64,000 bases of DNA from a virus, in the IMG/VR virus record IMGVR_UViG_3300032287_003559, positions 1 to 64,000 of that record; one strand, 5' to 3'. Positions 1 through 54,777 of the stretch are shown here, piece by piece. Numbering within the stretch: the first letter of the stretch is position 1; each line of letters opens with the position of its first letter. Under the pieces are notes generated by a model. That model ran no database searches. It was not told where the DNA came from and saw only the letters and a list, made by a program, of their open reading frames with translations. Position numbers and translations under genes: made by a program.

Positions 1-24
1 CTATAGTATGAACACCACTCAACC
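1..24 (+). promoter_or_regulatory. Repeat promoter element, copy A (cut by window edge)
   Basis: The window opens with the 3' end of an element that recurs at 1161, 1900, 2143 and 4480. What remains is the TATAGT box (2-7) and the CA-rich leader that follows it. The upstream CTCTGGGGCC part lies outside the window. It would drive the gene string starting at 26. That this is a -10 box is inference from the five-copy comparison. Confidence 0.6.
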
Positions 25-25
25 G

Positions 26-253
26 ATGATCGTCTCTGAAGTCTACTCCTACCACACAAATTGGAAGGAAGGTAAAGTTAATCAAATGTGGATTGAGCAG
101 ATTACTGATAAAGAGTGCGACAATCTCTACGTTGCTGTCGCACACAATCCCCGCAATGGTTCGACAATGGAGATGAGCAATCCCCGCACATCTTACCATG
201 AAACTCTAAACTGGGTTCGTCGGTATTGTGGTACTTTCTGTATTCTTCCCTGA
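26..253 (+). CDS. Small hypothetical protein, first gene of unit A
   Basis: Unrecognised 75-residue protein (MIVSEVYSYHTNW... to ...YCGTFCILP), polar, with four cysteines, two of them in the C-terminal CGTFC. An in-frame ATG at 8 exists but lies inside the TATAGT/leader part of the promoter repeat; two other repeat copies have GTG-TAA at that place, so 26 is preferred as start. There is no Shine-Dalgarno sequence; the leader is CA-rich. The stop overlaps the next ATG (TGATG), so it is translationally coupled to the signal-peptide gene at 253. Function unknown. Confidence 0.6.
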   Translation: MIVSEVYSYHTNWKEGKVNQMWIEQITDKECDNLYVAVAHNPRNGSTMEMSNPRTSYHETLNWVRRYCGTFCILP

Positions 254-375
254 TGCGATTCTTTCTTTCTTTTCTTCTCATCTTCGCGACTATTCCGAGT
301 GCATTTGCAACAGTAAATCCACAACAGGAACAACGCGCTGAACAATTCTGCCAAACTAACTCAAATCGCTGCTGA
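253..375 (+). CDS. Tiny secreted protein with signal peptide (40 aa)
   Basis: A 40-codon frame starts in the TGATG overlap with the previous gene. Residues 1-19 look like a signal peptide: MR, a hydrophobic core FFLSFLLIFATI, then PSAFA with an A-x-A type cleavage site. The mature part would be about 21 residues, Q/N-rich, with three cysteines (one central, two at the C-terminal RCC). No family is recognised. The position in an early-type gene string suggests an envelope-directed function such as superinfection exclusion, but that is only inference. A chance frame is possible at this length, though the tight coupling on both sides argues for a real gene. Confidence 0.5.
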   Translation: MRFFLSFLLIFATIPSAFATVNPQQEQRAEQFCQTNSNRC

Positions 376-377
376 TT

Positions 378-575
378 ATGCAATTCCAAGTTACTGAAAT
401 TGAGTTTGATTTTGATGATGATGAAGAGTTCACTCAACATCATTATGATAACATCACTGCCGACACTATCGGTATGATTTGGGAAGCAGATGATGAAGAT
501 GACCTAGTAGAAGAAATCACTGCTGCGACAGGTTGGTGTATCAAATCCATTGATTATCGTATCATTCTCAAATGA
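378..575 (+). CDS. Small acidic conserved cyanophage protein
   Basis: 65 residues, strongly acidic in the first half (FDFDDDEE) and around residues 37-44 (EADDEDDL), ending in an aromatic/basic segment (GWCIKSIDYRIILK). From memory, very similar small proteins with the WEADDEDDL...TGWCIKSIDYR pattern are common in T4-like cyanophages and are unnamed. It starts two bases after the preceding stop, and its own stop overlaps the next start by four bases (ATGA). Function unknown. Confidence 0.75.
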   Translation: MQFQVTEIEFDFDDDEEFTQHHYDNITADTIGMIWEADDEDDLVEEITAATGWCIKSIDYRIILK

Positions 576-733
576 AACACTCTAACACAGTTCGTATCAT
601 CGACAAACTGGGATTGTTCCCTGAGACTAAAGGTAAAGCACGTTACATCTCCGTCAAGACATACAATCATGCGATGGAGATTGTTGACGAACAAAACAAA
701 CTTGGTAACAAAGCTGTCCTGATTAACTGGTGA
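572..733 (+). CDS. Small basic hypothetical protein (53 aa)
   Basis: A 53-codon frame (MKHSNTVRIIDKLGLFPET... to ...KAVLINW) starts in the ATGA overlap with the acidic gene upstream. It is basic and mixed polar, with no membrane segment or metal-binding motif. The unbroken chain of 4-base overlaps in this string supports it being a gene. No family is recognised. Confidence 0.55.
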   Translation: MKHSNTVRIIDKLGLFPETKGKARYISVKTYNHAMEIVDEQNKLGNKAVLINW

Positions 734-750
734 TTTCCCTTCCTAATCCT

Positions 751-933
751 ATGTCTGAAACTCAAAAACGTGGTCTGAATGGATTAACTGAACTTGAGTT
801 CTTTTTGAATGAAAAGTGTCGCGAAGATCCTGACCTGTTAGCAACGATTATCAGTGAGTATGTTTGGAGTTTGACTCCTACTAAACTTGCTGAACTTGAG
901 GACTTTCTTGTAAACAACTTCGGAGACAACTGA
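751..933 (+). CDS. Small hypothetical protein, predicted alpha-helical
   Basis: 60 residues from ATG 751 (MSETQKRGLNGLTELEFFL...). An in-frame GTG at 730 overlaps the previous stop and would add seven residues; ATG 751 is preferred because the extension (ISLPNP) is unlike the rest. Content is Leu/Glu-rich, with a helical pattern in TPTKLAELEDFLVNNFGDN. Its stop overlaps the next ATG (TGATG). Function unknown. Confidence 0.6.
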   Translation: MSETQKRGLNGLTELEFFLNEKCREDPDLLATIISEYVWSLTPTKLAELEDFLVNNFGDN

Positions 934-1151
934 TGACTCTTTCACACGAACAAATCGAAGATCTGCGGCAGACTTATGCTGAAATGGTTGTTGATAGCAT
1001 GGACATGGAGACATTGGTATCATTTGCGATTGATTCGATTGTTGATGCTCTGCCTGTGAATGAGCAACAACTGAAACAAGAAATCATTGATCTTTATGAT
1101 GAAGAAATGTACGAAGATTTGCTGGAGAGTGTAACAAACTCAGCAGGTTGA
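933..1151 (+). CDS. Small acidic alpha-helical hypothetical protein
   Basis: 72 residues (MTLSHEQIEDLRQTYAEMV... to ...LLESVTNSAG), acidic and amphipathic, with no cysteine and no membrane segment. It is coupled to the preceding gene through TGATG. It is the last gene before promoter-repeat copy B, which begins ten bases after its stop, so unit A appears to end here without a visible terminator. No family recognised. Confidence 0.65.
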   Translation: MTLSHEQIEDLRQTYAEMVVDSMDMETLVSFAIDSIVDALPVNEQQLKQEIIDLYDEEMYEDLLESVTNSAG

Positions 1152-1160
1152 TAACTGAAA

Positions 1161-1193
1161 CTCTGGGGCCTTTAAATTGTCCCTATAGTATGA
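1161..1193 (+). promoter_or_regulatory. Repeat promoter element, copy B
   Basis: CTCTGGGGCC, then TTTAAATTGTCCC, then TATAGT (1184-1189). It differs from copies C and D at only one or two positions. There is no TTGACA-like -35 at 16-18 bp; the conserved GGGGCC block occupies that place, which would fit an activator-dependent promoter. It sits directly upstream of the gene at 1205. Confidence 0.65.
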
Positions 1194-1204
1194 GCAACAG
1201 TCAA

Positions 1205-1441
1205 ATGCAAACCACTTACACTTCGCCTGATACTGGCAAACTCTATCACATCATCGAATCGCAATCTGAGCGTGGTGCATGGGATGAGAATGGTAACTAT
1301 GCTCCGAAAGTTGTAACACAGTACAGCATCTATGATGACATGAAGATGGTGCAATTTGCATTTGATGAGAATGGAATTGCCAAATCTGTGAGACATCATG
1401 AAGGTTTTCATGATGGTTGGACTTCTTCCCGTTTCGACTGA
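1205..1441 (+). CDS. Hypothetical protein, first gene of unit B
   Basis: 78 residues from ATG 1205 (MQTTYTSPDTGKLYHIIES...). An ATG at 1190 also lies in frame, but it falls inside the TATAGTATGA part of the promoter repeat and would precede the expected transcription start. The protein is rich in Tyr, His and Asp (RHHEGFHDGW near the end). The N-terminal MQTxxxx matches the start of the gene at 1950 (MQTPKVY), which follows another repeat copy. Function unknown. Confidence 0.6.
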   Translation: MQTTYTSPDTGKLYHIIESQSERGAWDENGNYAPKVVTQYSIYDDMKMVQFAFDENGIAKSVRHHEGFHDGWTSSRFD

Positions 1442-1451
1442 TTTTACCACA

Positions 1452-1598
1452 ATGACATTCTCAACTGCTGAAATCTCTGCGCTTCGTTCACTCATTGAGT
1501 TTCATGATGATTGGGATGAAGTGAGCGAACTTCTGGGCACTGACATTGATACTTTGTATGAAAAAGTATGTGCTCTTGATGAGGTGATTGCGCAATGA
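1452..1598 (+). CDS. Small acidic hypothetical protein (48 aa)
   Basis: 48 residues from ATG 1452 (MTFSTAEISALRSLIEFHDD...). An in-frame ATG at 1398 lies inside the preceding gene and would give an unlikely 54-base overlap, so 1452 is chosen. The helical, acidic pattern DWDEVSELLGTDIDTLYEKV resembles a small DNA- or protein-binding helical bundle, but no family is recognised. Its stop overlaps the next ATG (ATGA). Confidence 0.55.
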   Translation: MTFSTAEISALRSLIEFHDDWDEVSELLGTDIDTLYEKVCALDEVIAQ

Positions 1599-1738
1599 TT
1601 CAGACGCAATTCTTTATTCTTACTTCTGAACAGTACGAAACATTTAATGATGAATCTGCTGCTGCTGGGGTTAGTCTCGATTACTTTCTTCTAGAGTTTT
1701 GTCAAATCGAAGGTGACTGGGTTAGTGTAGAAAACTGA
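1595..1738 (+). CDS. Small hypothetical protein (47 aa)
   Basis: A 47-codon frame (MIQTQFFILTSEQYETFNDE... to ...GDWVSVEN) in ATGA overlap with the upstream gene and TGATG overlap with the downstream one. Acidic, one cysteine, no membrane segment. Support comes only from the overlapping string. Function unknown. Confidence 0.5.
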   Translation: MIQTQFFILTSEQYETFNDESAAAGVSLDYFLLEFCQIEGDWVSVEN

Positions 1739-1893
1739 TGAGAAGCAGAACTTTAACATTCAAATCACCTGATAAAGTGAAACTGATCGCACTATTTTTC
1801 ATTGTTGGTATTGTTTTTTTCCCATCAGTTCGTCATGCTACTGCCTCTGCACTTCATACAACTGCTGACATTTTATCATCCGATTCTCAGTAA
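1738..1893 (+). CDS. Small membrane or secreted protein (51 aa)
   Basis: 51 residues with a basic N-terminus (MRSRTLTFKSPDKVK), a hydrophobic stretch LIALFFIVGIVFFPSV (about 16-31), and ATASA near residues 34-38 that could be a signal peptidase I site. It could be either a single-pass membrane protein or a precursor with about 13 mature residues. It is the last gene of unit B; its TAA starts the 38-bp block shared with copy D. Like the genes at 253 and 2518 it adds a tiny envelope-targeted product to an early-type unit. Confidence 0.5.
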   Translation: MRSRTLTFKSPDKVKLIALFFIVGIVFFPSVRHATASALHTTADILSSDSQ

Positions 1894-1899
1894 TCACAA

Positions 1900-1937
1900 C
1901 TCTGGGGCCTTGAAATTGTCCCTATAGTATGAACACC
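1900..1937 (+). promoter_or_regulatory. Repeat promoter element, copy C
   Basis: CTCTGGGGCCTTGAAA, TTGTCCC, TATAGT (1923-1928), then the CA-rich leader ACACCGCAACC. The stretch 1891-1928 is identical to 2134-2171 over 38 bases, including the TAATCACAA that ends the preceding coding unit in each case. Confidence 0.7.
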
Positions 1938-1949
1938 GCAACCAACCAA

Positions 1950-2135
1950 ATGCAAACCCCGAAAGTCTATGCTGTCATTGCTGGAAATGATTATGAAGGT
2001 GAAGATTTCGACACGCTGAAACTCTTTGATTGCAAATCTGCTGCAGAAAAGTATAAGGAAGAACTGGAAAAGGATTATGATTATGTGCTGATGGAAACGA
2101 AAGAAGTTTGTATGGAATCTGCAATCGCTGTCTAA
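1950..2135 (+). CDS. Hypothetical protein of single-gene unit C
   Basis: 61 residues from ATG 1950 (MQTPKVYAVIAGNDYEGED...). The ATG at 1929 in the same frame lies within the promoter repeat and is rejected for the reasons given for copy A. The sequence has an alternating hydrophobic start (KVYAVIAG), an acidic middle, and helical AAEKYKEELEKDY, suggesting a small alpha/beta fold. It is flanked on both sides by repeat copies C and D, so it seems to be a one-gene transcription unit. Function unknown. Confidence 0.65.
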   Translation: MQTPKVYAVIAGNDYEGEDFDTLKLFDCKSAAEKYKEELEKDYDYVLMETKEVCMESAIAV

Positions 2136-2180
2136 TCACAACTCTGGGGCCTTGAAATTGTCCCTATAGTGTAAGCACCA
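2134..2180 (+). promoter_or_regulatory. Repeat promoter element, copy D
   Basis: Same element as copy C with TATAGT at 2166-2171. The bases after the box read GTGTAAGCACC, so no ORF can start at the position where copies A, B and C have ATG. This is the main evidence that the box is a promoter rather than a start context. The real ATG of the next gene is 30 bases downstream. Confidence 0.7.
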
Positions 2181-2200
2181 CACCCAACCAACTTCCTACC

Positions 2201-2518
2201 ATGCGACTCATCGAACGTCAAATGAACAAAGCAATTCTGAACTCTCAGGATTGGAAATCTGACAACACTGAAGTTATCTATTCCCCCGAACGTGATGCAA
2301 GTTATGTAATGCTTCATGGCAATCACATTGCGACAATCAATGAGACTTCGCTTGAACTTTACACTTGTGGTTATAAAACAAACACCACCAAGTCTCGTCT
2401 CAATGCTATTCTGAAAGAGCACGGAAATGATGCCCGTATCTTTCAACGTAACTTCGAATGGTTTGTTGTAGATAACGATCAAACAGTTCCGTTCACTGAA
2501 GGAATGATCTTGGTCTGA
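2201..2518 (+). CDS. Hypothetical protein, first gene of unit D (105 aa)
   Basis: 105 residues (MRLIERQMNKAILNSQDWKSD...), with beta-type patterning in the middle (TEVIYSPERDASYVMLHGNHIATI) and a C-terminal DARIFQRNFEWFVVDND. From memory, T4-like and other phages carry small proteins with the pattern R..I..D.....N..V.Y......V.L.G..I, but I cannot name a family. A CA-rich leader without a Shine-Dalgarno sequence precedes the start. Its stop overlaps the next ATG (TGATG). Confidence 0.7.
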   Translation: MRLIERQMNKAILNSQDWKSDNTEVIYSPERDASYVMLHGNHIATINETSLELYTCGYKTNTTKSRLNAILKEHGNDARIFQRNFEWFVVDNDQTVPFTEGMILV

Positions 2519-2682
2519 TGAAAGTTATCACTGTTGCCCTATTCACTGTTATCTTTTTTGCCTCATGTGTCGTCGGTCTAAAAACAATCAATCCAAAGAT
2601 CGAAGCACAATGTATAGCAAAAGGAGGACAAGTCTTCACAACTCCTGGTAAGTTTAGTTCTTGTCTTTACTCTGCAAACTAA
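2518..2682 (+). CDS. Tiny secreted or lipoprotein-like protein (54 aa)
   Basis: 54 residues: MK, hydrophobic VITVALFTVIFFASC, then a polar mature part with two further cysteines (QCIAKGG and FSSCLYSAN). FASC partly fits a lipobox, so it could be a lipoprotein with Cys17 modified, or a secreted protein with a disulfide. It starts in TGATG overlap with the gene upstream. Third envelope-directed tiny gene of this block. Function unknown; superinfection exclusion is a guess. Confidence 0.55.
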   Translation: MKVITVALFTVIFFASCVVGLKTINPKIEAQCIAKGGQVFTTPGKFSSCLYSAN

Positions 2683-2699
2683 CACTCAACATCCCAAAC

Positions 2700-2882
2700 A
2701 TGATGATGACTAACGAACAAAAGCTTGAGGCATTGACTGATCTTCTATCCAATGTGATTCACTCTCTGGAGATGACAAAGTATGAGATTGAAGATGTATC
2801 AGAAGCAGCAAATGTTGTTCGTGAAGCAGACAACTATCACCAACAAATGCTAGACATTCTTCACTCTAACAACGCACAATGA
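2700..2882 (+). CDS. Small acidic helical hypothetical protein
   Basis: 60 residues if the first of three consecutive ATG codons (2700, 2703, 2706) is used: MMMTNEQKLEALTDLLSNV... . The whole protein looks alpha-helical and acidic. The ATGATGATG start repeats at the next gene (2879), whose first residues MMMTEN resemble MMMTNE here, so the two starts look duplicated. Its stop overlaps the next gene by four bases. Function unknown. Confidence 0.6.
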   Translation: MMMTNEQKLEALTDLLSNVIHSLEMTKYEIEDVSEAANVVREADNYHQQMLDILHSNNAQ

Positions 2883-3073
2883 TGATGACTGAAAATTATA
2901 CTGAACAAATTGACTTTCTTATTGCTGACACTCTAGAGAAAGTTCAACATCTAAATCCTGAACTTTATGGTCAATGGTATAGTAAACTCTATCCTCCTCA
3001 TGGTGATATTAAGAACTGGAATGTAGAGACGCTTCATACACTCGAACAACTCATTATTGATTATACAAAATGA
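2879..3073 (+). CDS. Small hypothetical protein (64 aa)
   Basis: 64 residues (MMMTENYTEQIDFLIADTL... to ...LHTLEQLIIDYTK), helical N-terminus, a central aromatic segment (YGQWYSKLYPPHGD), and a helical C-terminus. It begins with three ATG codons in overlap with the previous gene and ends in overlap with the next. No family recognised. Confidence 0.6.
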   Translation: MMMTENYTEQIDFLIADTLEKVQHLNPELYGQWYSKLYPPHGDIKNWNVETLHTLEQLIIDYTK

Positions 3074-3213
3074 CTGAAACTCAAGTGTTCACGATTCGCT
3101 ACTTTACGCCTTATCAACAACAATGGAGAACGCAAACGTTTTCTACACTTGATGAAGCACAAAGAATGGTCAGTTTCTATCAGTCTTGTGGTTCACCGTG
3201 CCATTTAGTTTAA
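3070..3213 (+). CDS. Small hypothetical protein (47 aa)
   Basis: 47 residues (MTETQVFTIRYFTPYQQQWR... to ...QSCGSPCHLV). A C-x(3)-C pair lies at the C-terminus. The N-terminal beta-like half and the TLDEAQRMVSFY helix resemble the gene at 4762, which also has a short strand followed by TINQAMVFVQSL, so the two may be distant paralogs. It starts in ATGA overlap; its TAA overlaps the following ATG (TAATG). Confidence 0.5.
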   Translation: MTETQVFTIRYFTPYQQQWRTQTFSTLDEAQRMVSFYQSCGSPCHLV

Positions 3214-3317
3214 TGTCTAAAGTTCTTGCCTTTCTTGATACTTTGACTGATGAACAGTTAGAGACATTGACTGATGAAGAAATCATCCAAATGATGAAAG
3301 AACAAGAGGAACAGTAA
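3213..3317 (+). CDS. Very small acidic protein (34 aa), last gene of unit D
   Basis: 34 residues, MSKVLAFLDTLTDEQLETLT followed by DEEIIQMMKEQEEQ. It contains the near repeat LTDEQLETLTDEE and is predicted fully helical. It starts in TAATG overlap. It is followed about 95 bases later by the terminator at 3413. Very short, so confidence rests on its place at the end of an overlapping string. Confidence 0.4.
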   Translation: MSKVLAFLDTLTDEQLETLTDEEIIQMMKEQEEQ

Positions 3318-3412
3318 GTATAAGAGAGGAAGGGAGTTTGCCTCTGTCATGTAAAGAAAGTGACTTCCGTAGAGTATAGATAATGCCTTAAACTTGTTGG
3401 TTGGTGGGTTAT

Positions 3413-3445
3413 AGAGAGAGGACTGGTAATCCTCTCTCTTTTTTT
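3413..3445 (+). terminator. Rho-independent terminator after unit D
   Basis: Perfect 10-bp stem AGAGAGAGGA / TCCTCTCTCT with loop CTGGTAA, followed by seven T residues (3439-3445). It closes the string that begins at promoter copy D. Confidence 0.9.
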
Positions 3446-3482
3446 ATGCTTACTTATACCAATATAGACGAAAAATGTGTAA

Positions 3483-3581
3483 ATGAAAACAATTAAAAAA
3501 TGTATTAAAAAACATATATGCCCTTTCATTCTCTCGCTATGTGTTTATGCTTTGTGTGTCTTTATGCGTGTAGAAGCATAA
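3483..3581 (+). CDS. Possible 32-aa membrane peptide
   Basis: ATG 3483 opens 32 codons: a basic start (MKTIKKCIKKH) and a hydrophobic, cysteine-rich segment ICPFILSLCVYALCVFM. It looks like a one-span membrane peptide or uncleaved signal. There is no promoter or Shine-Dalgarno site that I can see and it lies after a terminator, so it may be a chance frame in AT-rich intergenic DNA. Confidence 0.25.
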   Translation: MKTIKKCIKKHICPFILSLCVYALCVFMRVEA

Positions 3582-3741
3582 CGATTCTCCTGTAACTTAT
3601 GTCCTTAAAATCCTTCTAGACCTTGTTATCTTACACGTCATTGTATCACACTCCCGCATAAATCCGTCAACCCCCCACGGTCACAAAATCCCCACAATTC
3701 CCGCCCAGAATCCCCCGGAAGACCCCTAAATACCCCCAGAC
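3582..3741. other. Intergenic region with C-tract array (G-quadruplex motif on minus strand)
   Basis: No gene is visible. From 3671 the + strand carries C runs at 3671-3676, 3690-3693, 3700-3702, 3704-3706, 3712-3716, 3723-3726 and 3733-3737. The last six are separated by 6, 1, 5, 6 and 6 bases, so the minus strand satisfies the usual G-quadruplex pattern with spare tracts. This is striking in an AT-rich phage. It ends four bases before the -35 box of the promoter at 3742. Confidence 0.7.
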
Positions 3742-3771
3742 TTGACACACTACCTCACAGCATCTTATAAT
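3742..3771 (+). promoter_or_regulatory. Consensus sigma70-type early promoter
   Basis: TTGACA (3742-3747), 18-bp spacer, TATAAT (3766-3771). Both boxes are perfect. The leader that follows (CCACAACACCCAACG) is CA-rich like the leaders after the TATAGT repeats, which helps to align those repeats as promoters. Confidence 0.9.
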
Positions 3772-3800
3772 GGTTCCACAACACCCAACGGAGAGAGATC

Positions 3801-3974
3801 ATGTCGGTTGCGTATCATCAAGCTCAGAAGCAGCGTTATAGAATCACTCTGGAAATGTCAGTGCTAGCAGACTTTGACCCTCATCAAATTGACTGGGAGA
3901 AACTCTTCAAACTTGAGCCAAGTGAGAAGTGTGAAGCATACGTTGAGGACCTCGATTGCCCTTCTAAGTGGTAA
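3801..3974 (+). CDS. Small conserved cyanophage protein (57 aa)
   Basis: 57 residues (MSVAYHQAQKQRYRITLEMS... to ...YVEDLDCPSKW). From memory, cyanophages encode many small proteins of the pattern YR(I/V)TL......F.PH.I.WEKLF.LEP.E....YVEDL, all unnamed. Start ATG 3801 has the purine-rich GGAGAGAG a few bases upstream and lies about 22 bases after the expected transcription start of the consensus promoter. It is therefore likely a host-polymerase-transcribed early gene. Function unknown. Confidence 0.75.
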   Translation: MSVAYHQAQKQRYRITLEMSVLADFDPHQIDWEKLFKLEPSEKCEAYVEDLDCPSKW

Positions 3975-4016
3975 AACAGCACTTTTAGTTTTGATAGCAT
4001 ATTACATCTAAAAACC

Positions 4017-4024
4017 ACTAAATA
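4017..4024 (+). promoter_or_regulatory. Putative late promoter box (ACTAAATA)
   Basis: ACTAAATA, 28 bases upstream of the HNH gene, matches the CTAAATA form of the late box used elsewhere in this window (5368, 31929, 50282). It suggests the endonuclease gene is transcribed late, unlike its early neighbours. Confidence 0.5.
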
Positions 4025-4051
4025 ATGAGGTATTAAGTTATCAAAATACCT

Positions 4052-4507
4052 ATGAACTTATTAAGAGAAATTCTAATCGAAAGGTTGGGTGGAAAGTGTG
4101 TAGAATGTGGTCGAACTGAAACATTAGAGTTCGACCACATTGATCCCTCTACAAAGTCATTCAATATTGCATCAGGTTATAGCAAACCGAAAGAAGTTTT
4201 GTTAGCGGAAGTTGCAAAGTGTCAACTTCTATGTAACAAATGCCACATAGAAAAGAGTAAGAAAGACCTCAAGTTTCGCCCTAAAAATTGTGCTGGCGGC
4301 AGACCTCTTAAGTATAAAGATTTGGGTGTAGGAGTGATGATAAGGGTGCCCGAAAGTGTCACCTTTATTCTACCACAACTGCTAGACGTTATGCAACAGT
4401 TAGAGGAGAAGGGTGAGGATAGTCGTGAGGTGATTTTACAGGTCCTCAGTGACATCGAAGAACGTCTGAGTAACCGAAACTCTGGGGCCTTGAAAGTGTC
4501 CCTATAG
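4052..4507 (+). CDS. HNH endonuclease
   Basis: 151 residues. The N-terminal half is an HNH domain: C16-V-E-C19, then LEFDHIDP with the catalytic D-H (about 28-29), and LLCNKCHIEKSK, giving the second Cys pair and final His. Residues about 80-150 are a separate helical part (ESVTFILPQLLDVMQQLEEK). HNH enzymes of this kind are free-standing homing endonucleases in phages, cutting and spreading into related genomes; that role is inferred. A 14-bp perfect inverted repeat (4104-4141) lies in the codons between the first Cys pair and the DHID motif. The last codons read into promoter-repeat copy E and the stop TAG is part of its TATAGT box. It has its own late-type box. Confidence 0.9.
   Translation: MNLLREILIERLGGKCVECGRTETLEFDHIDPSTKSFNIASGYSKPKEVLLAEVAKCQLLCNKCHIEKSKKDLKFRPKNCAGGRPLKYKDLGVGVMIRVPESVTFILPQLLDVMQQLEEKGEDSREVILQVLSDIEERLSNRNSGALKVSL
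4104..4141 (+). repeat. 14-bp perfect inverted repeat inside the HNH gene
   Basis: Left arm AATGTGGTCGAACT (4104-4117), 10-nt spacer, right arm AGTTCGACCACATT (4128-4141). All 14 pairs match. In RNA it would be a very stable hairpin about 50 nt downstream of the start codon, encoding the region between the Cys pair and DHID. Confidence 0.9.
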
Positions 4508-4517
4508 TGTAAGGACA
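4480..4517 (+). promoter_or_regulatory. Repeat promoter element, copy E
   Basis: CTCTGGGGCCTTGAAA, GTGTCCC, TATAGT (4503-4508), then GTAAGGACAACC. One base differs from copies C and D up to the box. It overlaps the last codons of the HNH gene. The gene it serves starts at 4534, and the GTGTAA after the box again rules out a start codon there. Confidence 0.7.
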
Positions 4518-4533: not shown

Positions 4534-4737
4534 ATGTCTCAAACCGCTCTGAACTTCGCTATCGAAAATGCCTTCCAATCTCTTGCTAAAAAGGATTGGA
4601 ATCTGTTCGATGCTTGGTATGAGCGTCTGCACAATGTTCAGATGATTGGTGATATTGAGCAGACTGAAATCATCGAATCTGAGTGGAACGCAACCAACCT
4701 GGATTTGATGCTTGCCGATGTTATGTCTGCTGCCTGA
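4534..4737 (+). CDS. Hypothetical protein, first gene of unit E
   Basis: 67 residues (MSQTALNFAIENAFQSLAKK... to ...LDLMLADVMSAA), mostly helical, slightly acidic, two Trp in the first half (DWNLFDAWYERL). No family recognised. The leader between the TATAGT box and the ATG is CA-rich (ACAACCCAACCGCCC), like those of the other repeat-driven genes. No Shine-Dalgarno sequence. Confidence 0.65.
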   Translation: MSQTALNFAIENAFQSLAKKDWNLFDAWYERLHNVQMIGDIEQTEIIESEWNATNLDLMLADVMSAA

Positions 4738-7426: not shown

Positions 7427-7434
7427 AATAAATA
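7427..7434 (+). promoter_or_regulatory. Putative late promoter box upstream of gene 25
   Basis: AATAAATA in CTCTAATAAATAAGG, 20 bases before the gene 25 start. Likely entry point for the whole 25-6-7 baseplate string. Confidence 0.7.
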
Positions 7435-7454: not shown

Positions 7455-7856
7455 ATGCCATTAGAGCGGGTAAGTCAAGGTTTCAAGGATATTAGCATGT
7501 CTTTTCAGATTAATCCTCTGAATAATGACTTAATTGCGCTTAAAAATGAAACTGCGATTGCTCGCTCTATTCGTAATATTGTTTTTACTCTTCCCGGAGA
7601 AAAGTTTTTTAATCAAAATTTTGGTTCTAGGGTAAGTAGATCTCTTTTTGAAAATGTAGATGAAATTTCTGCATCTATTATTAAAGATGAAATTGAGAAC
7701 TCAATCAATAATTATGAGCCAAGAGTTCAATTAATTGAGGTGCAAACAATTCCCGATTATGATAATGGTGCATTTGACGTAATCATTTCTTACAGAATTA
7801 TTGGCGCAGATGTTCCTGCTCAACAATTACAGTTTGTTCTGCAACCTACCAGGTAA
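7455..7856 (+). CDS. 25: Baseplate wedge subunit gp25
   Basis: 133 residues, almost exactly the T4 gp25 length (132). The central motif NIVFTLPGEKFFNQNFGSRVSRSLFE is the gp25/GPW family signature (F-x-PGE-R-x-x-x-x-x-G). gp25 sits at the inner baseplate wedge and contacts gp6 and the sheath initiation site. It is followed eight bases later by gene 6, as expected from its partner. An in-frame ATG at 7497 (MSFQIN...) is an alternative start; 7455 is kept because it matches the T4 length. Confidence 0.93.
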   Translation: MPLERVSQGFKDISMSFQINPLNNDLIALKNETAIARSIRNIVFTLPGEKFFNQNFGSRVSRSLFENVDEISASIIKDEIENSINNYEPRVQLIEVQTIPDYDNGAFDVIISYRIIGADVPAQQLQFVLQPTR

Positions 7857-37450: not shown

Positions 37451-39100
37451 ATGGCCGATGATATTTACTTAGGTAATCCTAATCTAAAAAAAGCAAATAC
37501 TGCTATAGAATTTACTCAAGATCAAATTCTTGAGTTTGTAAAATGTAAAAATGATCCAGTTTATTTTGCAAAAAATTATGTGAAGATTGTCACATTGGAT
37601 CATGGTCTTATGCCTTTTGAAATGTACCCATTTCAAGAAAAATTGGTTAATAACTTTCATAAGCATAGGTTTAATATTTGCAAGATGCCGCGCCAGACCG
37701 GAAAGTCAACTACTGTGGTATCTTTTCTTTTACACTATGCAGTTTTTAACGATAATGTAAATATTGGTATTCTTGCAAACAAAGCAGCTACTGCTAGAGA
37801 ATTATTAGATAGACTTCAAACAGCTTATGAGAATCTTCCCAAATGGATGCAGCAAGGAATCATCTCTTGGAACAAAGGATCTTTGGAACTGGAAAATGGA
37901 AGTAAAATCTTGGCTGCTTCTACTTCTGCTTCTGCGGTTAGGGGCATGTCTTTCAATATCCTATTTTTGGACGAATTTGCGTTCGTTCCGAATCACATTG
38001 CAGATTCGTTCTTTGCTTCTGTTTATCCTACAATTACTTCGGGCAAAAACACAAAAGTAATCATTGTTTCTACACCGCACGGTATGAATCATTTTTACCG
38101 AATGTGGCATGATGCTGAAAAAGGAAAAAACGAATATGTCTTTACAGATGTTCATTGGAGTGAAGTTCCGGGAAGAGATGAACAATGGAAGGCACAAACC
38201 ATTGCAAATACTTCAGAGCAACAATTTAAAGTAGAATTTGAGTGCGAATTTCTTGGATCTGTTGATACTTTGATTGCCCCATCAAAACTTAGAAGCCTTG
38301 TCTATGACCATCCTAAGACTCGTAGCGCGGGTTTAGATGTTTATTTGGATCCGGTAGATCAACATGATTATTTAATTACTGTAGACGTTGCTAGGGGTGT
38401 TGGAAATGATTATTCGGCATTTACTGTTGTAGATATAACTCAATTTCCTCATAGAGTTGTTGCAAAATATAGAAATAATGAAATAAAACCGATGCTTTTT
38501 CCAAGCATAATTCATGAGACAGCAATTGCTTATAATGATGCATATATTCTCTGTGAAGTAAATGATGTTGGAGATCAAGTAGCAAGTATTCTCCAGTATG
38601 ACTTAGAGTATAATAATCTTCTTATGTGCTCTATGAGAGGAAGAGCTGGTCAAATTGTTGGGCAAGGATTTAGTGGAAAGAAAACACAACTTGGAGTTAA
38701 GATGTCCAAAACTGTAAAAAAAGTTGGATGTCTTAATCTCAAGACTATGATAGAAGAAAATAAATTATATTTGAACGATTATGAAATAATTAGTGAACTT
38801 ACAACTTTTATTCAGAAGCACAATTCATTTGAAGCTGAAGAGGGATGTAATGACGATTTGGCAATGTGTTTGGTAATTTATGCATGGTTAGTTGCTCAAG
38901 ATTATTTTAAAGAGTTAACTGATCAAGATGTAAGAAAACGTCTTTATGAAGAGCAAAAAAATCAAATAGAACAGGATATGTCCCCATTTGGATTCATATC
39001 AGATGGATTAGATGAAGAAAGTTTTGTAGATGTTGATGGAGATAGGTGGCATCTTGATGAGTATGGTGATATGGCTCATATGTGGAATTATATGACGTAA
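37451..39100 (+). CDS. 17: Terminase large subunit gp17
   Basis: 549 residues (T4 gp17: 610). ATPase domain: adenine/Q motif region near 56-66 (MYPFQEKLVNN), Walker A MPRQTGKSTT (~77-86), Walker B NILFLDEFAF (~168-177), coupling motif VIIVSTPHG (~198-206). Nuclease domain: TVDVARGVGNDYSAF (~312-326), with the catalytic Asp pair, and a final EGCNDDLAMCLVI (~465-477). It packages DNA into the prohead through the gp20 portal and cuts the concatemer at headful. The C-terminus WHLDEYGDMAHMWNYMT is acidic/aromatic. Confidence 0.96.
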   Translation: MADDIYLGNPNLKKANTAIEFTQDQILEFVKCKNDPVYFAKNYVKIVTLDHGLMPFEMYPFQEKLVNNFHKHRFNICKMPRQTGKSTTVVSFLLHYAVFNDNVNIGILANKAATARELLDRLQTAYENLPKWMQQGIISWNKGSLELENGSKILAASTSASAVRGMSFNILFLDEFAFVPNHIADSFFASVYPTITSGKNTKVIIVSTPHGMNHFYRMWHDAEKGKNEYVFTDVHWSEVPGRDEQWKAQTIANTSEQQFKVEFECEFLGSVDTLIAPSKLRSLVYDHPKTRSAGLDVYLDPVDQHDYLITVDVARGVGNDYSAFTVVDITQFPHRVVAKYRNNEIKPMLFPSIIHETAIAYNDAYILCEVNDVGDQVASILQYDLEYNNLLMCSMRGRAGQIVGQGFSGKKTQLGVKMSKTVKKVGCLNLKTMIEENKLYLNDYEIISELTTFIQKHNSFEAEEGCNDDLAMCLVIYAWLVAQDYFKELTDQDVRKRLYEEQKNQIEQDMSPFGFISDGLDEESFVDVDGDRWHLDEYGDMAHMWNYMT

Positions 39101-39330
39101 TGGAATTAGATAAACAAATAAAACTTGGACATTTATTGCTCACCGATAGAAAATGTAGAGTTTGTGGCGAAATAAAGAATCTAACAGATGACTTTTATAG
39201 GACTAGAAAAAACCGAGGACCAGTTGCATCATCTTATTCTTATGAATGTAAAGATTGTACAGTAAAGAGGGTGATAGAAGCGAGAAGAAATAAGCCATAT
39301 CAAAGTGACTGGGAATACCCAAATTGGTAA
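39100..39330 (+). CDS. Small zinc-ribbon protein (HNH-like Cys pairs)
   Basis: 76 residues from ATG 39100, which overlaps the gp17 stop (TAATG). Two CxxC pairs: CRVCGEIKNL and YECKDCTVKR, 30 residues apart, with LTDDFYRTRKNRG between, a layout seen in the zinc-binding N-termini of phage HNH proteins; the HNH catalytic residues themselves are absent. It could be a stand-alone DNA-binding zinc ribbon or a relic of an endonuclease. From memory similar proteins follow gp17 in other cyanophages. Confidence 0.65.
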   Translation: MELDKQIKLGHLLLTDRKCRVCGEIKNLTDDFYRTRKNRGPVASSYSYECKDCTVKRVIEARRNKPYQSDWEYPNW

Positions 39331-53743: not shown

Positions 53744-54777
53744 TGCGTATCGCTATCATCACAGACACTCACTATGGTGCTAGAAAAGGTTCAAAACTTT
53801 TTCATGATTATTTTGAACTTTTCTACAAGAATGTGTTTTTCCCGACGCTGGAACAGTACGGGATTGATACAGTCATTCATATGGGCGATGCTTTTGATAG
53901 TCGTAAGTCAATTGATTATCAAAGTTTAGAGTGGGCTAAAAGAGTTGTATTTGAACCTCTTAAAAATTATCAGGTTCATATGATTGTTGGTAATCACGAC
54001 AGTTATTATAAGAACACAAATAATACAAATTCTCCACAACTTCTTCTGAAAGATTATCCAAATATTCAAACTTATTCCGATCCGAGTGAGATCAGAGTTG
54101 GAAATCTTGATATTCTTCTTCTACCCTGGATTTGTTCGGAAAATGAAGAAAAGACTCTTAAGATGATTAAAAAGACCAAGGCAAAAGTTGCTATGGGACA
54201 TCTAGAACTTCAAGGATTCCGTGTAAATAGTCAGATTATTATGGAACATGGACTTGAAGCAAATATTTTTAAAGACTTCTCTAGGGTATTTTCTGGTCAT
54301 TACCACACTCGTTCTAATAATGGAAATGTATTCTATCTTGGAAATCCTTACCAGATGTTTTGGACTGACGTAAATGATACTCGGGGATTTACAATTTTCG
54401 ATACAGAAACATTAGAACATATTGCTATAGATAATCCTTATAGAATGTTTTATAATATTTACTATGAGGATACTAACTATCAAACATTTGATACTCGTGA
54501 GTATGAAAATAAAATAGTGAAAGTAGTTGTTCGTAAAAAGTCAGATACTAAAAAATTTGAAAAGTTTATTGATAAACTCTATTCTTCCAATATCGCAGAA
54601 CTTAAGATTATTGAAAACTTCGATATTCAAGAACCAGAAGATTTTGAAGCATTTGAAAGTGAAGATACTATTTCGATCTTGAATAGATATATTCAGGAGG
54701 CAGAAATTAATCTTGATAAATCTACCATTCAGAAAATGATGCAAGAAATTTATCAGGAGGCTTGTGAATTGGTTTAA
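53743..54777 (+). CDS. 47: Recombination nuclease subunit gp47 (Mre11-like)
   Basis: 344 residues (T4 gp47: 339). Metallophosphoesterase motifs in order: AIITDTHYGARKG (D-x-H), VIHMGDAFDS (G-D), MIVGNHDSYY (GNHD), MGHLELQG and FSGHYHTRS (G-H-x-H). It forms the nuclease with gp46 (Rad50-like), resecting DNA ends for recombination-dependent replication. ATG overlaps the gp55 stop (TGATG). Confidence 0.96.
   Translation: MRIAIITDTHYGARKGSKLFHDYFELFYKNVFFPTLEQYGIDTVIHMGDAFDSRKSIDYQSLEWAKRVVFEPLKNYQVHMIVGNHDSYYKNTNNTNSPQLLLKDYPNIQTYSDPSEIRVGNLDILLLPWICSENEEKTLKMIKKTKAKVAMGHLELQGFRVNSQIIMEHGLEANIFKDFSRVFSGHYHTRSNNGNVFYLGNPYQMFWTDVNDTRGFTIFDTETLEHIAIDNPYRMFYNIYYEDTNYQTFDTREYENKIVKVVVRKKSDTKKFEKFIDKLYSSNIAELKIIENFDIQEPEDFEAFESEDTISILNRYIQEAEINLDKSTIQKMMQEIYQEACELV

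Follow-up and report, generated by a model that had tools for sequence, protein, structure and literature searches.

The first 64,000 bases of the 175,135-bp virus record IMGVR_UViG_3300032287_003559 (this whole stretch is called the window hereafter) carry a 29-bp element that we argue is probably a phage promoter. Its four full copies, all on the plus strand, lie at 1161–1189, 1900–1928, 2142–2170 and 4480–4508 (copies 1 to 4). The window opens with CTATAGTATGAACACC, the last seven bases of a fifth copy followed by a gene start; this 3' end (CTATAGT, 1–7, plus strand) is cut by the start of the record. A search of both strands of the 175,135-bp record found no copy beyond these five, and dinucleotide-preserving shuffles gave no element match, even with three mismatches allowed. 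An earlier sequence-only reading of this DNA had placed the repeat at 1161, 1900, 2143 and 4480, with a fifth copy cut by the edge, and had proposed it as a private promoter for strings of small genes. The positions are borne out, with the third copy starting at 2142, as is the identity over 38 bases that it saw between the copies at 1900 and 2142, which takes in the preceding stop codon TAA. The motif that it spelled out, ending in TTGTCCC and TATAGT, is exact in these two copies only: copy 1 carries TTTAAA, and copy 4 carries GTGTCCC instead of TTGTCCC.

The element consists of two parts, numbered here from the first base after TATAGT (position 0). A core common to all lineages, AAAGTGTCCC-TATAGT-RTRAGCAC, occupies positions -16 to -1 (AAAGTGTCCCTATAGT), with bases kept to about +10 (RTRAGCAC). 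An upstream half of about 14 nt spans -30 to -17. The upstream halves of copies 1 to 4 lie at 1160–1173 (type A), 1899–1912, 2141–2154 and 4479–4492, and their cores at 1174–1189, 1913–1928, 2155–2170 and 4493–4508. All the genes behind the copies run on the plus strand. The ATG of an 81-aa gene (8–253) directly follows the TATAGT of the cut copy, that of an 83-aa gene (1190–1441) starts at the first base after the TATAGT of copy 1, and that of a 68-aa gene (1929–2135, phrog_17343) at the first base after that of copy 2. The 81-aa gene has a second in-frame ATG 18 nt later, which its relatives in other phages (MSNPIVSEIYSYHTNW...) lack; the 83-aa gene has one at 1205, and the 68-aa gene is a single-gene unit between copies 2 and 3. 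Copies 3 and 4 have the GTAA form, copy 3 holding no start codon. The ATG of a 105-aa Kyano_Gp96/phrog_554 gene (2201–2518) lies 30 nt after copy 3 and heads a string of genes that ends near 3317, and the ATG of a 67-aa gene (4534–4737) lacking a Shine-Dalgarno (SD) sequence lies 25 nt after copy 4. In the window, therefore, every copy does precede a short gene or a string of genes, as had been claimed. The CA-rich leader that had been noted after each box is present in copies 3 and 4; in the other three of the five, the same stretch is coding sequence from the ATG after TATAGT.

Relatives of the element were fetched with the core alone (at least 120 stretches) or with the type A element (28 IMG/VR stretches), so that the conservation of the core is partly selected; the core-only search exerts no such selection on the contrast in the upstream half. 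Contigs are not mutually independent, and p-values for the family are nominal. The family comprises at least about 600 copies in at least 121 contigs or records of T4-like cyanophages, including S-SM2 and SynMITS9220M01. The exact search for the window's own type gave 28 IMG/VR contig stretches, and one 54-kb contig holds 13 exact copies. At up to three mismatches, S-SM2 has seven copies and SynMITS9220M01 nine, all on the plus strand and confined to the tiny-gene region, at 42.7–57.1 kb and 38.9–50.0 kb, respectively. S-B05 carries a variant core, AAATGTCCMCTATAGTG. Syn9, S-CREM1, S-SRM01 and S-CRM01 have no core copy at up to three mismatches, and the core is absent from all 84,980 bacterial and archaeal species genomes searched, by which a host origin is rejected. 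This absence upholds the description of the element as private to the phage group. The papers listed by a literature search for the string GTCCCTATAGT were unrelated.

Comparison of the copies indicates that the two parts vary in different ways. Per base, upstream halves differ on average by 0.17 within contigs versus 0.54 between contigs, and cores by 0.09 within and 0.11 between. Nine spellings of the upstream half were distinguished, and 96.8% of the typed copies have the majority type of their contig; 500 shuffles give 42% (largest 45%). The consensus spellings include tctGGGGCCTT (the phage of this record), GGATCgTCc, AcTGGGCCCcTG and ACTGAggC, as well as AAGGGGGGaCG, with the TCG form in S-SM2, and TtaCTCACCTCt in SynMITS9220M01. 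The block GGGGCC, once taken for the conserved signal, is therefore a single spelling among the nine or more that the lineages use. The commoner gene families stand behind elements of many types, and a given family may have one half in one phage and another half in the next, so the spelling is a property of the genome and not of the gene. No inverted repeat is shared by the upstream halves of the lineage consensuses. Separately, one or more elements of foreign type occur among own-type copies in IMGVR_UViG_3300046804_002762 (L021, L063, L025), at L012:6156 and in L072, as if gene cassettes had arrived with their own promoter.

Because the spelling is uniform within a genome, we read the upstream half as a lineage-specific recognition site for a putative phage factor, which would have changed in step with every copy in the genome. 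The same uniformity can be approached from another side. The IMG/VR contig L013 matches the present record without a difference for 13,122 bp, and both begin at one and the same base within an element. The assembly therefore breaks off at the repeat, and further copies are probably to be found upstream of the record. This assembly break, the element-gene-element cassettes, the 38-bp identity of copies 2 and 3 and the occasional foreign-type copies within a contig would all suit a recombination repeat whose uniformity mainly serves gene shuffling, as proposed for the PeSL repeats discussed below, with expression secondary. Such a role, however, does not account for the strict orientation and spacing to start codons, and recombination alone does not demand that lineages with diverged upstream halves should retain the core. 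We consider it very improbable as the main function, although the element-gene-element units may also supply short homologies for gene swapping.

The position of the element relative to genes is well defined. Among 565 copies, a start codon is found at position 0 in 238 and at positions 1–60 in 248 (486 together), with a spike at 0, few at 1–14, and then starts from 15 onward; copies lying mainly inside genes or downstream of them, the pattern named beforehand as contrary to a promoter, were not what we found. The stop codon of the upstream gene lies at a median of -33, so that the element fills the gap between one gene's stop and the next gene's start. All copies are on one strand in 98 of the 106 contigs with two or more copies. 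In S-B05, late genes on the minus strand and the array of tiny genes on the plus strand diverge from a junction at which the first copy is located, and no same-strand gene is annotated upstream of it to supply a transcript. In phages free of the element (Syn9, S-CREM1 and S-SRM01), 11 of the 13 orthologs of element-headed genes have a gap of at least 25 bp in front of them, compared with 17 of the 51 other genes (odds ratio 11, p=0.001). Taken together, placement, orientation, the divergent junction and the ortholog gaps point to a promoter, as far as sequence can tell. The gene most often found right behind the element encodes a DUF6267/phrog_455 protein of about 298 aa (for example L010:2949-3845 and about 45 relatives), whose KIDGSPAI stretch recalls the KxDG motif of nucleotidyltransferases and ligases.

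The tight coupling to start codons and the want of an SD sequence would also fit a signal in RNA and not a promoter: long polycistronic transcripts would be processed, or entered by ribosomes, at the element, which would mark or create the gene start. Yet the RNA fold of the element is not significant (z -0.9 to -1.3) and has no T-run, only a subset of genes is headed by it, one copy sits at a divergent junction, and the orthologs in other phages lie behind promoter-sized gaps. As the folds are weak and about half of the copies stand 15–60 nt from the start codon, a reading at the DNA level is preferred, and we judge the RNA signal improbable. An RNA hairpin was likewise rejected: type A can pair ACTCTGGGG with CCCTATAGT, but with weak z-scores, and the other lineages cannot pair.

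In roughly half of the copies, the gene starts at the ATG that directly follows TATAGT. In 300 copies with ATG at position 0, 92% open at least 40 codons in that frame, versus 1% and 4% in the other frames. Where a further start lies 12–45 nt downstream, an ATG occupies position 0 in 117 of 199 cases if that start is in frame and in 14 of 134 if it is out of frame (odds ratio 12), the alternatives at position 0 being forms without a start codon. These reading-frame statistics argue that ribosomes see the ATG at position 0. SD-like sequences are absent from all 264 ATG copies, and occur in 3% of the leadered form and in 10% of other ATG reading frames; the first 40 nt or so are poor in G, both as leader and as coding sequence. 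About 106 genes have the ATG at 0 and no other nearby start. Of those that could be scored, 49 of 99 form units of a single gene that the next element follows immediately, most often the DUF6267/phrog_455 gene, and it is on this ground that we set the RNA 5' end between about -5 and 0. The 5' ends forecast by the sequence-only reading, 6 nt after TATAGT (1195, 1934, 2177 and 4514), are probably wrong, since in about half of the family the ATG immediately behind TATAGT is used as the start codon.

These data bear directly on a conventional promoter, in which TATAGT would be a sigma70 -10 box, RNA would begin at the A 6 nt later, and the embedded ATG would be used only on readthrough RNAs from upstream elements. 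TATAGT resembles a -10 box, C(+5) and A(+6) are kept at canonical spacing, the starts of the GTAA form and the second ATGs fall mostly at 15–24 nt and would give leaders of 9–18 nt, and related phages show TATAAT or TATACT with starts about 20–30 nt downstream. If RNA began 6 nt after TATAGT, however, that of the single-gene units would lack its start codon, leaving a useless RNA for those 49 of the 99 scored among the about 106 genes with only the ATG at 0; and the spike of starts at 0, the scarcity at 1–14 and the return from 15 are as expected if RNA starts near 0. We therefore hold the conventional promoter to be unlikely, though it deserves to be taken seriously.

TATAGT is -10-like by itself; as the absence of TTGACA noted earlier would have it, no site in our scan for a sigma70 -35 (TTGACA-like, 16–18 bp before the -10) uses the TATAGT of any copy as its -10. 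A transcription start upstream of the whole element was rejected because no conserved -10-like sequence is present there. The resemblance of GTGTCCCTATAG to the SP6 promoter, together with TATAG, had prompted the idea of a T7-like promoter, since rejected: the T7-type polymerase family PF00940 is absent from S-SM2, SynMITS9220M01, S-B05, Syn9 and the genome G000, and the control P-SSP7 matches at 2.7e-69. As no T7-type polymerase is present while the control matches, the host RNA polymerase is the presumed transcriber. A sigma54-like -24/-12 spacing was dropped for want of GC at -12 and because cyanobacteria are not known to have sigma54.

The reading that we favour, and consider somewhat probable, is that the element is a phage-private promoter of the early-type tiny-gene region in one large group of T4-like cyanophages (Kyanoviridae), used by the host RNA polymerase together with a genome-specific factor, with RNA made from about the end of TATAGT. 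The core would be the part contacted by the polymerase, and the first transcribed base would be the one that follows TATAGT, or one shortly before it. In the ATG form the transcript would start with, or a few bases before, the AUG and be nearly leaderless; in the GTAA or ATAA form it would have a leader that is rich in CA, lacks an SD sequence and is mostly 15 nt or longer. The fuller proposal is more tentative and may well fail in some part: RNA starts in or right after TATAGT, so that the promoter supplies the start codon, and each lineage has its own upstream spelling together with a fast-changing specificity factor of its own to read it, which would amount to a private transcription code within one virus family.

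Several observations weigh against this favoured reading. A C at +5 and an A at +6, where a normal -10 box would start RNA, are conserved, the A at 92% and 79% in the two forms, and it is mainly this C-A that keeps our confidence from being higher. With TATAGT as a normal -10, the CA initiator favours an RNA start 6 nt later, which makes the embedded ATG odd; and for a host-type RNA polymerase, a start within TATAGT or beside it departs from standard sigma70 geometry. The uniformity within genomes could stem in part from recombination between copies and not from a reader. A comparison of presence and absence across seven genomes for a reader of the upstream half gave 29 candidates, none of them a convincing DNA-binding protein. 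One small zinc-type protein (39082–39330 in the window) was rejected, as it matches endonuclease VII families; in G000 and S-SM2 it is 73% identical to its counterpart in SynMITS9220M01, and it is unmatched in Syn9, S-CREM1 and S-SRM01.

On balance, the promoter idea is indirectly supported, that of a phage-specific reader is strengthened, and the repeat family is much larger than first stated. The suggested activator or appropriated sigma factor stands in so far as the upstream block behaves as the recognition site of a phage-specific reader; the search for such a factor found none. If the upstream half is a lineage code, the family offers a natural series of promoter-reader pairs that changed together, and with it a handle on finding the reader. 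It would also provide examples of promoters with the start codon of the driven gene built in. The element is in any case a concrete, sequence-defined candidate for early/middle gene switching, with exact positions in two cultured phages (S-SM2 and SynMITS9220M01).

The surroundings of the copies in the window fit a T4-like cyanophage, from which the record comes. Genes for gp25-like and gp6-like baseplate wedge proteins lie at 7455 and 7865, and the order tiny genes, gp25, gp6 is also annotated in S-SM2, Syn9, S-B05 and S-SRM01. A box resembling the T4 late promoter, AATAAATA, is found at 7427–7434, 28 bp before the gp25-like gene at 7455; WATAAATA has nine other matches in the window on the plus strand and one on the minus strand. 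The gene string begun at copy 3 is followed by a hairpin with a T-run that resembles an intrinsic terminator (3413–3439, plus strand). A canonical sigma70-type promoter outside the element family, TTGACA-18-TATAAT, is confirmed at 3742–3771 on the plus strand. It precedes the gene at 3801, whose purine-rich, SD-like leader (GGAGAGAG) contrasts with the element-headed genes. Copy 4 overlaps the 3' end of an HNH-endonuclease-like open reading frame (4052–4507; phrog_4234, E 4e-21), the last codons of which enter the copy and the stop of which is the TAG of TATAGT; it is possibly a homing endonuclease beside the candidate promoter. Rfam and tRNA scans of the window gave no match.

The nearest precedent for the element is the early-gene element of Syn9. 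Doron et al. 2016 (ISME J) reportedly described a novel, non-T4 early-gene element in Syn9 and P-TIM40, abundant among T4-like cyanophages. Both elements precede early genes of T4-like cyanophages, the early timing of ours being predicted. Syn9 differs in having no copy of the present core at up to three mismatches, and its early-region gaps hold (C/G)TGKCMC, about 30 nt and a TATAAT-like box. This arrangement belongs to a second promoter-like class: (C/G)TGKCMC, about 30 nt that often form a G+C-rich hairpin, TATAAT and a leader of about 20 nt. Its sites are at 54659, 57343 and 87202 in S-SRM01 (MW015081), 70015, 72214 and 150640 in S-B05 (MK799832), 108592 in SynMITS9220M01, and 46306 and 47220 in Syn9. 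Five of six sequences tested from S-SRM01, S-B05 and SynMITS9220M01 fold at z -2.0 to -3.9, and the class looks like a PeSL-type stem-loop plus promoter. It may be the published Syn9 early element. The present element lacks the hairpin of this class.

The PeSLs of T4-type phages are composites of a stem-loop and an early promoter (PMC4503421). Like PeSLs, the present element is a presumed regulatory cassette repeated between the small genes of a hyperplastic region, but it has no significant stem-loop, T-run or sigma70 -35. Early and middle transcription in cyanomyoviruses, which lack motA/asiA and known Alt/Mod systems, has been called unclear (PMC2984593). T4 middle promoters combine a MotA box (TGCTTtA, 11–13 bp before the -10) with a -10 (PMC1524935). 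The analogy with them drawn by the sequence-only reading is fair as logic, with the host RNA polymerase, a -10-like box and a phage-specific block replacing the -35. The sequences are different, however, and the present upstream block has many lineage spellings; the Mot box is absent from all nine lineage consensuses, and the MotA family PF09114 had no match in seven records, in a search made without a positive control. Intergenic repeats of halovirus HF2 and its genus are promoters by reporter assay (PMC8707807). The likeness lies in repeated intergenic sequences; that virus is archaeal, and its sequence is unrelated.

The start-associated sequences (SAS) and extended SAS (ESAS) of Cluster K mycobacteriophages have a constant part by the start codons and an upstream part that differs between subclusters (PMC3203893). 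The upstream parts of ESAS are imperfect 17-bp inverted repeats, and SAS are placed for translation initiation (PMC3203893). They are the closest parallel for a constant plus a lineage-specific part at gene starts, and share with the present element one main orientation and rarity or absence in hosts; the present element differs in having neither an SD sequence nor a conserved inverted repeat. We would place the element with the phage-private early-region promoters and the start-associated repeats.

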